In this document: piece after piece, positions 30,896 to 35,980 of the stretch
Layout of the letters: the number at the start of each line of letters is the position of its first letter
Position numbering within the stretch: the stretch's first letter is position 1
NCBI RefSeq assembly: GCF_014137945.1
Contig: NZ_JACGWX010000001.1
Span: 831,372 to 895,371 of the forward strand
Length of the DNA stretch: 64,000 bases
Direction of reading: 5' to 3'
Source: Microcella alkalica
GTDB taxonomy: Bacteria > Actinomycetota > Actinomycetes > Actinomycetales > Microbacteriaceae
Position numbers and translations under genes: made by a program
Notes under the pieces: generated by a model
What the model saw: only the letters and a program-made list of their open reading frames with translations
Databases searched by the model: none
What the model was told of the DNA's origin: nothing

Positions 30896-31993
30896 TTACT
30901 GGCTCACCCATTCGAGGTAGAACAGCCCGACTCCGACCGCGACGAAGAGACCGGCGATGAGCCAGAAGCGCACGACGACCGTGACCTCGGCCCAGCCCTT
31001 GAGCTCGAAGTGGTGGTGGAGAGGGCTCATCAGGAAGATGCGCTTGCCCCTGGTGAGCTTGAAATAGACGCGCTGCACGATGACCGAGCCAGTGACGATG
31101 AGGAAGAGGCCGCCGATGAGGACGAGAAGGAGCTCGGTTCGCGTGACGATCGCGAGTCCTGCGATGGCCCCGCCAATGGCGAGCGAGCCCGTGTCGCCCA
31201 TGAACACCTGCGCGGGCGATGTGTTCCACCACAGGAAGCCGATGAGAGCGGCGGCGATGGCGGCCGAGACGATCGCCACGTCGAGCGAGTCGGCGCGCAC
31301 CTCGTAGCACTTGTACTCGAGCTCGGGGTCGAGGTTGGGGTTGTAGCAGTTCTGGTTGAACTGCCAGAACGCGATGATGATGTACGACGCCACGGCGAGG
31401 ATCGCGGAGCCCGTCGCGAGGCCGTCGAGACCGTCGGCGACGTTCACTGCGTTGGAGGTGCTCACGACGATGACGTTGATCCAGATGACGAACAGGACGA
31501 TGCCGACGGCGCCGAGCGCCGCGAAGTCGAGCGCCTCGATGTCGCGGACGCCCGAGATCATCGTCGACGCGGCCGTCTCGCCCTGGGCGTTGGGGTAAGA
31601 GATCGCGAGGATCGCGAACACGGAGGCGACGATCACCTGGCCGACGACCTTCGCCCAGCCGGTCAGCCCGAGGCTGCGCTGGTTGCGCACCTTCATGAAG
31701 TCGTCGATGAAGCCGACGAGTCCGAGGCCGACCATGAGGAGCAGCACGAGCATCGCGCTCTGCGTGGGCGCCGTCTGGTCGACGAGATGCCCGAAGAAGT
31801 AGCCGAGCACTGAGCCGAGGATGACGATGATCCCGCCCATCGTGGGCGTGCCGCGCTTGGTGTGATGCGTCTGCGGACCGTCGTCCCGGATGAACTGCCC
31901 CCACTCGAGGCGACGGAACAGCCGGATGAACAGCGGAGTGAGCAGGAGCGTGAATGCCAGGGAGAACGCGCCGGACAGGAGCAGGGCTCTCAT
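30896..31993 (-). CDS. mraY: Phospho-N-acetylmuramoyl-pentapeptide transferase
   Basis: Ten-helix membrane enzyme that moves phospho-MurNAc-pentapeptide to undecaprenyl phosphate (lipid I). The 365-residue product shows [30 protein letters not shown] (catalytic Asp pair), [15 protein letters not shown] and [12 protein letters not shown], ending HHHFELKGW. It overlaps the murF-like gene as ATGA. Confidence 0.97.
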
Positions 31994-32640
31994 GCGGTCT
32001 CCTCCGTCAGGCGGGTTATCAGGCGGTCGAGCGGAATGATTCCTGCGGCGCTCACGAGCACCGCATCGCCAGGCTCGAGTCCGGCTCGGAGTTCATCGTA
32101 GGCCGCGTCGAGGTCGTCGACGAGGAGCGACTCCCCGTCCCACGAGCCCTCGAGGCCGGCCGCGGTGCTGATGTGGCGCGCGCCGTGCCCCACGACGATC
32201 AGCTGACCGATGTCGAGGCGCACGACGAGCCTGCCGAGCTGATCGTGATCCTCGAACCGGTCAACCGGTTCACTCACGAGCTCGCCGAGCACCGCGAACG
32301 AGCGCGTCACACCCCGCGTCGCGTCGGCCAGCACCTTGAGCGAGCGGCGCACCTCGGTCGCCGTGGTCGCGGCGGTGTCGTCGATGATCGTGACTCCCCC
32401 GGGGGTGATGACGCGACGGCAGCGGCCGTGGATCTCCGGCTGCTGCTCGCCGGCGCGCACGGCGTCGGACAGCGACGCGCCCGACGCGAGCGCGGCGCGC
32501 ACGCGGGCGAGCGCCGCGTCCACGGCGGCATCGCCGATCGCATCGATCCGCACGACCGCCCGCTCGTCGCCGAGACGGAGCTGCACCCGCGCCCCGTCGA
32601 GCGCGTGCGTGACGTCGTCGATCTGGAGAGAGGTCGTCAT
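31990..32640 (-). CDS. Truncated MurF-like protein (C-terminal half only)
   Basis: Occupies the murF position but is only 216 residues against about 460-480 for MurF. Residues about 20-216 align by pattern with the end of the central domain and the whole C-terminal domain of MurF: HGRCRRV (71-77) for the usual HRM-type segment, [35 protein letters not shown] and LEPGDAVLV. The N-terminal UDP-binding domain and the ATPase region with the GTNGKT P-loop are absent, and the conserved D-AYNANP motif reads [11 protein letters not shown] (87-97). Ligase activity is therefore very unlikely. Yet the frame is clean, codon use matches the neighbours, and both ends overlap as ATGA (murE stop, mraY start), so it is probably expressed. 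A complete murF must exist elsewhere if the organism makes a pentapeptide. Confidence 0.8.
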
Positions 32641-34184
32641 CGGGCAGGCCACCCTGCATCGCGCAGCGCGGCGCGCGCCTCGTCGCGGGCCGAGTGCGGG
32701 TGCTTCACTCCGCCGACCTCGCGGTAGTCCTGATGCCCCGGGCCCGCCCACAGGATCGAGTCGCCGAAAGCGGCGCGGCGAACGGCGAGGCGGATCGCCT
32801 CCTCAGGCGAGGCGACCTCGATGATCTCCGCCCCGTCGACCGCCGTTCGAGCGCCATCGAGAAGGGCGCGGCGGATGGCCGCAGGATCCTCGGTGCGGGA
32901 GTCGAAGTCGGTGATGATGAGGAGGTCCGAGCCCTCGGCTGCGACGCGCCCCATGTCCGCGCGCTTCGTCGTATCGCGGTCGCCGTCCGCGCCGAACATC
33001 ATGATGATCCGGCCCGGAGTGACTCGTCGCAGAGCGGCGAGAGTCGAGACGAAGGCATCGGGACTGTGCGCGAAGTCGACGAAGACGCTCGGCCCCTCAT
33101 CGCCGGAGACGCGCTCGAGGCGTCCGGGCAGATACGCGTCGATCGACCGCTCGTGAAGCGAGTGCGCGAGCCGCTCGACCTCGACTCCCGCCTCGACGAT
33201 CATGGCGATCGCAAGGCCCGCGTTCATCGCCATGTGCCGTCCGATGACCGGGATGCCCGTCCGGAGCTCGATGCCGTTCGGGCCGGTCACGGCGAAGGTC
33301 GTGCTCGCCTGCGTCTCCTCCAGGATCTCCACGCGCCAGTCGGCGGCGCCATCGAGCGAGCCGATCGTCGTGACCGGGATCTCGCTCTCGGCGGCCAGCC
33401 GCTCGCCCCACGAGGTGTCGGTGCAGACGACCCCGCGGCGCGCGCGCGTCGGCGAGAAGAGAGCGGCCTTCGCCTGGAAGTACTCCTCCATGTCTGCGTA
33501 ATCGTCGAGGTGGTCGTGGCTGAGATTGGTGAAACCGGCGACGTCGAAGACGATGCCGTCGACCCGGTGGCGCGTGAGCGCCTGAGCACTCACCTCGATC
33601 GTCATGGCCTGCACGCCGAGCTCGCGCGCCCGAGCGAGGAGCGCGTGCGTCTCGCTCGCCTCCGGCGTGGTGAGGCTGCTGGAGACGGTGAGCTCGCCGA
33701 GCCGGCGCTCGGCCGTGGTCGACAGGCCGCACACGAGCCCGAGCTGTCGGAGGACCGCATCGAGCAGGTACGCGGTCGACGTCTTTCCGTTGGTGCCCGT
33801 GACGCCGATCAGGAGCGGAGGCTGCTCGTCGCTGCGGTGGACCCAGGCCGAGACCTCTCCGAGCGCGGCCCGAGGATCCTCGACGAGGAGGAGGGGGACG
33901 TCGACCTCGCCCGCGAGGTCCGCCCCGGCGGCATCCGTCAGCACTGCGGCGGCGCCGGAGCCGATCGCCGCGGCCGCGAACTCGGCGCCGTGGCGGTGGC
34001 GTCCCGGCACTCCGACGTAGAGGTCGCCTGCCCGCACATCGTCCGTGGAGAGAGTGACGCCCGACACGTTCACATCGGCCGGATCGCCCCGGACGACGGA
34101 GATCGGGAAGACCGCGAGGAGCTCGGCCAGCGGACGAGGAACGGGATGCTCGGGCCGCAGGACTGCAGGAGCGCGACCGGACAC
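32637..34184 (-). CDS. murE: UDP-N-acetylmuramoyl-L-alanyl-D-glutamate--diamino acid ligase MurE
   Basis: Adds the third residue (a diamino acid or relative) to the stem peptide. The 515-residue product has all three domains: VSGVTLSTDDVRAGDLYVG, the P-loop GVTGTNGKTSTAY, FTNLSHDHLDDY with the usual catalytic-site residues, and GADGDRDTTKRADMG in the C-terminal domain. The specificity motif is FDSR (427-430) rather than the DNPR of meso-diaminopimelate enzymes, so the added residue is uncertain. GTG 34184 is 5 nt after AAAGAGG and preferred over the GTG at 34214. It overlaps the murF-like gene as ATGA. Confidence 0.92.
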   Translation of the reverse strand: MSGRAPAVLRPEHPVPRPLAELLAVFPISVVRGDPADVNVSGVTLSTDDVRAGDLYVGVPGRHRHGAEFAAAAIGSGAAAVLTDAAGADLAGEVDVPLLLVEDPRAALGEVSAWVHRSDEQPPLLIGVTGTNGKTSTAYLLDAVLRQLGLVCGLSTTAERRLGELTVSSSLTTPEASETHALLARARELGVQAMTIEVSAQALTRHRVDGIVFDVAGFTNLSHDHLDDYADMEEYFQAKAALFSPTRARRGVVCTDTSWGERLAAESEIPVTTIGSLDGAADWRVEILEETQASTTFAVTGPNGIELRTGIPVIGRHMAMNAGLAIAMIVEAGVEVERLAHSLHERSIDAYLPGRLERVSGDEGPSVFVDFAHSPDAFVSTLAALRRVTPGRIIMMFGADGDRDTTKRADMGRVAAEGSDLLIITDFDSRTEDPAAIRRALLDGARTAVDGAEIIEVASPEEAIRLAVRRAAFGDSILWAGPGHQDYREVGGVKHPHSARDEARAALRDAGWPAR

Positions 34185-34207
34185 CACGACCTCTTTCTGA
34201 ACGGGGC

Positions 34208-35980
34208 CTACCACGTCAGGGGCAGGCTGGGGGCGGGTTGCGTCGAGGGCGGCACCCGGAAGGTCTTCAGCACTTGCGTCATGATCGACCGGAAGGTGGG
34301 CGCCGCAGCAGCCGACGTCCTCATCGTATCGGGACGCGCGAGCGTGACGACGACCACGAACTGCGGATCGTCAGCGGGGGCCATCCCGGCGAGCGACACG
34401 ATGCGCTGGCCGCCGTAGCGTCCATTCTCCGCGACCTCCGCGGTTCCCGTCTTCGCGGCGACGCGGTAGCCGGGGATCGTCAGCTGCGACGAGAGGAACC
34501 CGTCGGTGACGACCGACTCGAGGATCGACACGGTCGTGTGCGCGGCCTCCTCCGAGAGGATACGCTCGCCCTCGCCGCTGGGCTGCATGCCCACCGTGCC
34601 ATCCGGCAGACGGCACCCGGCGACGAGGGTGAGAGGCATGTGGACTCCCCCGTTCGCGATCGCCTGGTAGGCGCTCGCGACCTGTGCGCTCGTCGCCGTC
34701 ATGCCTTGCCCGAACATCTGCGTGAAGGCGCTGTGACCGTCGATCGAGGCCGGGTCCTGGATGTCGCCGCCCTCCTCGCCGAGGAAGCCGACAGCGGTGG
34801 GCTCGTCGAGGCCGAAGCGCTGCAGCATCTCCGCACGCTGCTCCGCGCTCGTGCGCTCGACCACCATGGAGGTGCCCACGTTCGAGGAGTTCATGAGGAT
34901 GCCCGCGGTCGTGAGAGGCAGGTCGCCGTGCGCCCAGGCATCCCCGATCGTGTAGTTCAGGATCGTCGCGTAGCGGCCGGGAACCGTGAACCTCTCGAGC
35001 GGCGTCGTCACCCCCTCATCCAGGAGCGCGGCGAAGGTCAGTGCCTTGATGGTGGACCCCGGCTCGTAGGGAGCGGTGAAGCTGCGAGCACCGAGGTTGT
35101 CGACGGAGGTGCTGTTGACGTCGTTGGGATCGACCGTGGGCCAGTCGGCGGCGGCGATGACGGCGCCATCCGCGACCCGCACGACGAACGCCGTCGCCCA
35201 GTCCGCGCCGATCGCTGTCCCCTGCTCCGCGATCGCCTGCTGCGCGAACCACTGCACGTCGGAGTCGATCGTGAGCTCCAGCGTCCCGCCGTTCACCGGC
35301 TCCTGCTCGACGACCGTCGTGCCCGGCAGGCGCACGCCGTCGGCCCCGCGCTCGTACGTCGAGGTGCCGTCGGTCGCCGCGAGGCACTCGTCGGCCGCGA
35401 GCTCGAGCCCCGTCTGCGGGCCGTCGGTTCCAAGGAACCCCACGAGGTTGCCCGCGACCTGGCCGTTCGGGTAGGCGCGAGCCGGCTGCCGCTCGAAGTA
35501 CACCCAGGGGATCCGCAGGTCTCGCACCGCCTGGTACACCTCGGTCTCGACCCCGCGCACGAGGTAGGCGAAGTCGTCGTCGGGGTCGACCGCGAGCTCG
35601 GAGTCGATGATGGACTGCAGCGCGGCCGGATCCTGATCGGTCAGCGCTGCCAGCTGGCCGAGCGCCTCCCACACCGTCCGCGTCGTCCGCTGCCCGGTCT
35701 CCTCGTCGAGGATCGTTGACGGCGCGACGAAGCGCGGCGAGACGGTGATGTCGTAGCGGTAGACGGTGTCGGCGAGCACGACGCCGTTCCGGTCGACGAT
35801 GTCGCCGCGCGCGCCCTGGAGCACCTGCGGGATGGATCTGCGCGCCTCCGACTGCTCGGCGAGCTCGCCGGCCCGCACGACCTGGATGTCGATGAGCCTG
35901 ACGAGGAACGCGAGAAGCACGGCCGCCACGATGACGACGGTGAGAGCCAGCCTGCGGCGGGTACGGCGAACGGCGATCAC
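34208..35980 (-). CDS. ftsI: Septal peptidoglycan transpeptidase FtsI (PBP3 class B)
   Basis: Crosslinks septal peptidoglycan and is the partner of FtsW. The 590-residue protein has one N-terminal helix (about 10-30), the PBP dimerisation domain (GARGDIVDRNGVVLA), and the transpeptidase domain with S309-T-I-K312, the SSN motif (in MNSSNVGTS) and K510-T-G (AAKTGTAE). No PASTA domain. GTG 35980 begins after the ftsL-like gene with a 29-nt gap. Confidence 0.95.
   Translation of the reverse strand: MIAVRRTRRRLALTVVIVAAVLLAFLVRLIDIQVVRAGELAEQSEARRSIPQVLQGARGDIVDRNGVVLADTVYRYDITVSPRFVAPSTILDEETGQRTTRTVWEALGQLAALTDQDPAALQSIIDSELAVDPDDDFAYLVRGVETEVYQAVRDLRIPWVYFERQPARAYPNGQVAGNLVGFLGTDGPQTGLELAADECLAATDGTSTYERGADGVRLPGTTVVEQEPVNGGTLELTIDSDVQWFAQQAIAEQGTAIGADWATAFVVRVADGAVIAAADWPTVDPNDVNSTSVDNLGARSFTAPYEPGSTIKALTFAALLDEGVTTPLERFTVPGRYATILNYTIGDAWAHGDLPLTTAGILMNSSNVGTSMVVERTSAEQRAEMLQRFGLDEPTAVGFLGEEGGDIQDPASIDGHSAFTQMFGQGMTATSAQVASAYQAIANGGVHMPLTLVAGCRLPDGTVGMQPSGEGERILSEEAAHTTVSILESVVTDGFLSSQLTIPGYRVAAKTGTAEVAENGRYGGQRIVSLAGMAPADDPQFVVVVTLARPDTMRTSAAAAPTFRSIMTQVLKTFRVPPSTQPAPSLPLTW

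Follow-up and report, generated by a model that had tools for sequence, protein, structure and literature searches.

The murF position of the dcw cluster in Microcella is occupied by a catalytically dead fragment of MurF that is maintained by selection, has arisen repeatedly in the family Microbacteriaceae and is predicted to fold. This is a real and unusual feature: the fragment is a Mur-ligase pseudoenzyme and a protein encoded elsewhere in the same genome is a predicted membrane-anchored MurF, the role of the fragment and the substrate of the ligase being predictions. On balance, the explanation that we consider probable is that the selected, non-catalytic fragment is a docking piece of a Mur/MraY/MurG assembly and that the membrane-anchored ligase adds D-Ala-D-Ala instead.

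The murF locus and its distribution

In the window (the whole stretch of 64,000 nucleotides that was analysed) the fragment is a 216-residue open reading frame at 31990..32640 on the minus strand, with its ATG at 32640, described here from Pfam, TIGR01143, an AlphaFold2 model and PDB fold matches. It is placed between murE (32637..34214, minus strand; 525 residues as listed), which has its own P-loop GTNGKTST, and mraY (30896..31993, minus strand; 365 residues). Both ATGA overlaps reported in the first-pass annotation were read at these junctions, the murE stop overlapping the ATG of the fragment and the stop of the fragment overlapping the ATG of mraY (31993). A GTG start extending the frame to 253 residues was rejected, as it enters murE and adds no domain.

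Residues 1 to about 70 represent the end of the MurF central domain, and the rest is the whole C-terminal domain. Mur_ligase_C (residues 72-200, 43.4 bits) is the sole Pfam family above its cut-off, and PF08245 was not found in the fragment by the Pfam search. The murF model TIGR01143 scores 59.8 bits, below its curated cut-off of 288.6, and aligns at model positions 219-416 of 418 only. Since the N-terminal part of the model is unaligned, the fragment is without UDP domain and P-loop, as the first-pass annotation had claimed when it described a C-terminal piece of MurF with a ruined catalytic motif. Indeed, residues 87-97 (32350..32382, minus strand) replace the INDAYNASPDS of the family, and the D-AYN-NP motif of a MurF ligase is lost. 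The predicted model (pLDDT 95.4, pTM 0.91) has the fold of the MurF C-terminal domain, and MurF heads its Foldseek and VIA-align lists and provides the best PDB folds. The fragment thus resembles one domain of MurF and differs from the enzyme (TIGR01143; PDB 1gg4, 4qf5, 4cvm) in having no UDP domain, P-loop or intact catalytic motif.

The genome of the window is 2.74 Mb in size and 99.99% complete, and the search for a full-length murF found no locus in it that reaches the TIGR01143 cut-off. The same is true of all 26 genomes of the genus (G000-G025), while MurF above the cut-off is present in 34 of 60 genomes (11 genomes of other genera of the family and 23 of other families). As full-length MurF is absent, its activity must come from elsewhere, as was also foreseen, and a candidate ligase lies 0.68 Mb away on the same contig. 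An assembly or sequencing deletion at the murE-murF junction, which would have accounted for the short gene, is excluded because 25 of the 26 genomes carry the short form. Among these, a contig end interrupts the fragment of G025, and that of G018 is shorter (about 154 residues); the assembly of the remaining genome, G024, gave no mraY match at all. The ligase was seen in 24 of the 26, one copy being partial, and was not seen in G012 and G025, both of which are 71% complete.

The fragment is also present in all of 23 further genomes from six other genera, and in G092, which belongs to a seventh further genus; this brings the genera of the family with the short form to at least eight. All 48 fragments have mraY beside them and 47 have murE, the remaining one being at a contig end. 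The expectation of a conserved form of about 210 residues across Microbacteriaceae was borne out as far as a short form is concerned, within the genus and beyond, but not in its size, as lengths vary from 143 to 338 residues. Among 299 genomes of the family, 267 have MurF above the cut-off, and at least 29, from at least seven of 85 genera, have the ligase among the matches listed (E 1e-40). All of these 29 listed ligase genomes carry the fragment and 28 of them are without full MurF above the cut-off, the only exception being G158. Four of the 299 genomes (G092, G128, G218, G264) gave no MurF match at E 1e-40. In G264 and G128 there was no mraY match either, and in G218 mraY is cut by a contig end. 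The fragment of G092 (90% complete) has about 310 residues (L261 461-1498), with a P-loop-like GSVGKSTT and a damaged catalytic motif.

The membrane-anchored MurF-like ligase

The candidate ligase (L073:1501-3090, equal to G000:C1:151793-153382) consists of Mur_ligase_M and Mur_ligase_C preceded by a predicted membrane anchor. It has a P-loop, GSYGKTSTK, and a MurF-type catalytic motif, DDTYNSNP, both invariant or nearly so in A1/A3. Against TIGR01143 it reaches 177.8 of the required 288.6 bits over model positions 63-392. PF08245 and PF02875 are its only Pfam domains; a UDP-binding domain is missing and is replaced by about five predicted N-terminal helices (7-33, 53-76, 80-94, 113-137, 149-182). 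Its best PDB matches are MurF, and the fold list also contains MurT chains and 8f5d, an entry titled MurE-MurF complex.

In 96 of 109 loci, and in 28 of the 29 loci of the family, the ligase has a Ddl homologue and a matching alpha/beta hydrolase as neighbours. This hydrolase-ligase-Ddl block (L073-L101 and L161-L240; L002 in the genome of the window) is found in Actinobacteria, Chloroflexi, Tissierellia, Poribacteria and Bacteroidales MAGs. Canonical Ddl above its cut-off occurs in 9 of 37 genomes, namely in all 8 with full MurF and in just one, G265, of the 29 that have only the ligase; it tends to vanish where canonical MurF does. Microbacteriaceae with either kind of MurF have a second protein of Ddl type, which scores about 205-225 bits; therefore Microcella does not depend on the Ddl of the ligase operon alone. 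For Actinomarina, four genomes were searched, and the D-Ala-D-Ala-ligase-type match among those listed is the one of the ligase operon.

Through named ligase loci, 29 further genomes were surveyed. Three have MurF above the cut-off, three Bacteroidales MAGs have a full-span MurF match just under it, and the rest, including all five Actinomarina, have the ligase alone. In Nocardioides YR527, a Tissierellia MAG and a Chloroflexi MAG the ligase occurs beside full MurF, so it may do another job there. Acidimicrobiia-type loci from genomes with the ligase have murE adjoining mraY, and no fragment, in 14 of 14 cases. Together with the ligase-alone genomes, gene content of this kind suggests that many genomes probably rely on the ligase as their sole MurF, and do so without any fragment. 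The murF-less dcw clusters with murE directly next to mraY are L251-L258, L262-L266 and L268, from Acidimicrobiia, Actinomarina and allied MAGs.

It could be proposed that the fragment is a required subunit of the ligase and that both form one split MurF, as the ligase has no UDP domain and every listed family genome with the ligase also has the fragment. We find this doubtful. The fragment is absent from the 14 Acidimicrobiia-type loci and therefore the ligase does not need it; the ligase has central and C-terminal domains and both motifs of its own, and the fragment brings no UDP domain to make up for the one that the ligase lacks. Moreover, no ligase was found among the matches listed for G092, the sole exception seen to the pairing of fragment and ligase. 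A split MurF with its missing half at some other place was rejected, the remaining PF08245 loci of the genome being murE, murD, murC, a locus on C2 (E 9.4e-16) and the ligase.

Conserved residues, selection and repeated truncation

What has been lost and what has been kept in the fragments was compared at 47 loci (L067, at a contig end, was omitted here and from the codon analysis). The catalytic residues N339, Y342, N343, M373, E375 and L376 of the family are kept in 0-4 percent of fragments (N339, Y342 and N343 in 4, 4 and 0 percent), and K449 and S451 in 26 percent. In contrast, G136, V140, R141, L142, G151, A154, R155, E164-S167, G169-S171 and A180 are kept in 96-100 percent. Two stretches stand out: EGSWDGES (residues 164-171; 32128..32151, minus strand), of which the form EGSWxGES is common to all 48 fragments, and GRLVVRL (residues 136-142; 32214..32234, minus strand), in which G136 and R141 are invariant. 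Of 18 full-length MurFs from the family, 16 have EGSW, as against none of 46 membrane-anchored MurF-like proteins. The family set used in the comparison of sites was without L275. From the strand order in the predicted model we infer that the kept stretches, which form the loops after helix 125-141 and before strand 170-174, would lie at the edge of the sheet opposite the old active site.

These patterns bear on the idea that the fragment is a regulator, which would still bind precursor, nucleotide or D-Ala-D-Ala and throttle MurE or MraY. A complete C-terminal domain fold is kept in the predicted model, and some positions around the former active site are still widely shared (D88, G119 and H132 in 81, 100 and 77 percent of the 47 fragments). 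However, almost every fragment has lost the contacts that the motif makes with ATP and substrate, and the most conserved residues are other than the catalytic ones, and we regard such a regulator as unlikely.

For 24 Microcella fragments the codon model gave omega 0.151, with lnL -9929 against -10550 when omega was fixed at 1 (kappa fixed at 1.368 in that run). In the four other genera tested (g101, g59, g89, g52) the values were 0.105, 0.178, 0.156 and 0.110. The corresponding controls were 0.057 for murE and 0.026 for mraY (21 and 22 sequences, fast search), which puts the fragment at 2.6 times the murE value and 6 times the mraY value. It changes more quickly than the two genes beside it, though still far from neutrally, and its higher omega fits relaxed as well as new constraint. 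A value of 0.121 for the N-terminal part was excluded from the argument, since it rests on saturated branches. The proposal that the locus is not simply decaying, for which a dN/dS check had been advised, is thus upheld by an omega of 0.15 and by conservation throughout the genus; the value near 1 expected of a pseudogene is not seen.

When each start is placed as close as possible to the murE stop, the fragments differ in length between genera. Those of g101, g105 and three of the four g59 genomes have 303-338 residues; G158 has 219, Microcella about 215, g52 150-220, g64 173-177 and g89 143-146. The longest retain a worn P-loop, for example GRSST, and recent intermediates such as P0238 still carry DAYNASPDS. 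In the mraY tree (L056 and L147 omitted) six clades made up of stubs alone lie dispersed between full-length ones, with G193 nested in full-length g105 and G161 with G265 in full-length g64 (ultrafast bootstrap 99-100 each). murF has been truncated independently at least three times in the family, the number being given as a minimum because the support joining the fragments of Microcella, g89 and g52 is only 43. At each truncation the C-terminal domain was retained. In the ligase tree (L097 omitted) all ligases of the family form one clade (0.997), in which G193 groups with g64 and g59, unlike its neighbours in the mraY tree. This conflict suggests that the ligase moved by lateral transfer and that a fresh truncation of murF followed.

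The graded lengths, the degenerate P-loop remnants and the recent intermediates are what a slowly decaying pseudogene would leave, had the ligase made murF dispensable with the remainder still present. That explanation is very unlikely: reading frames are clean in 48 loci, omega is 0.11-0.18 in five genera with a likelihood far better than at omega 1, and the fragment persists even in genomes of 1.2-1.8 Mb (g52, g89). In addition, W167 is present in 100 percent of 47 fragments against 50 percent of 22 distant full-length MurFs, where "distant" stands for 19 from the same order and three from Nocardioides, Tissierellia and Chloroflexi. Equally hard to credit is a mere spacer, kept open through translational coupling of murE, fragment and mraY while the protein has no role: almost all loci show an overlap between the stop of the fragment and the start of mraY, and the fragment begins at most 26 bases from the murE stop, but a spacer needs no amino acid conservation of the kind seen in omega and in EGSWxGES, and murE runs straight into mraY in the 14 Acidimicrobiia-type loci, so nothing forces a spacer.

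A probable docking role and its precedents

The docking of the fragment in a Mur assembly, which by analogy with known systems is likely, could have come about as follows. The membrane-anchored ligase would have taken over the MurF reaction, the predicted addition of D-Ala-D-Ala, and this would have freed the dcw copy of murF from catalysis. An older second role of the MurF C-terminal domain in Microbacteriaceae, presumably the binding of a partner in a cytoplasmic complex of wall-precursor enzymes, would have kept the domain in place, and the face with R141 and E164-S171 would carry that role. Several observations count against this account. The shrinkage of the fragment from 338 to 143 residues is as slow decay would give, and the MurF model gives the ligase no more than 178 bits, where the cut-off is 288.6. 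The raised omega of the fragment, the residues still common around the former active site and the lineages with both the ligase and full MurF point the same way. The role of the fragment is not a general one, given its absence from the 14 Acidimicrobiia-type loci.

The order of the genes, together with the binding of MurG by a MurE-MurF fusion of Bordetella with a KD of 0.57 uM (PMC6420597), makes MurE, MraY and MurG the first candidates for a partner. The fusion of Bordetella pertussis is a precedent for MurF inside a Mur complex (PMC6420597); there, however, MurF is catalytic and fused to MurE, whereas here a dead fragment only overlaps murE. For the ligase the closest likeness is MurT of MurT/GatD, the lipid II isoglutaminyl synthase, which is also a Mur ligase relative without UDP-binding domain and is reported to use lipid I and II and no soluble precursor (PMC6085368). 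The ligase differs from MurT in its approximately five predicted membrane helices, its MurF-type motifs and its neighbour, which is a Ddl homologue and not GatD.

The MurT/GatD precedent leads to a bolder reading of the docking explanation, which we offer tentatively: the ligase would add D-Ala-D-Ala to a lipid-linked precursor after MraY, and the MurF C-terminal domain would be a dedicated non-enzymatic organiser of Mur, MraY and MurG. If true, evolution has separated the two jobs of MurF and the textbook order of steps is reversed. More generally, the locus bears on two questions, the physical association of Mur ligases in a complex and any function of MurF beyond catalysis. It represents a natural separation-of-function mutant that arose several times, with catalysis lost and one domain and one motif kept, and the motif supplies named residues for testing a non-catalytic role of MurF. 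The ligase without UDP domain makes the order of the last cytoplasmic peptidoglycan steps testable in two large actinobacterial groups. For annotation, it means that in genomes with a short dcw murF the usual MurF is absent.

A search of the open-licence literature turned up no description of a shortened dcw MurF or of the membrane-anchored ligase. murF-like genes have been placed in van clusters, and no van clusters are reported in Acidimicrobiales and Actinomarinales (PMC8698665). A second full MurF outside the dcw cluster is present in G158; its catalytic residues are intact and it is without EGSW, and the dcw fragment of the same genome keeps EGSW, a natural dissociation of motif and catalysis that favours a second role for the C-terminal domain. 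This extra full MurF belongs to an accessory murF-alanine racemase-ddl group at 2.7-6.2 kb of L275.
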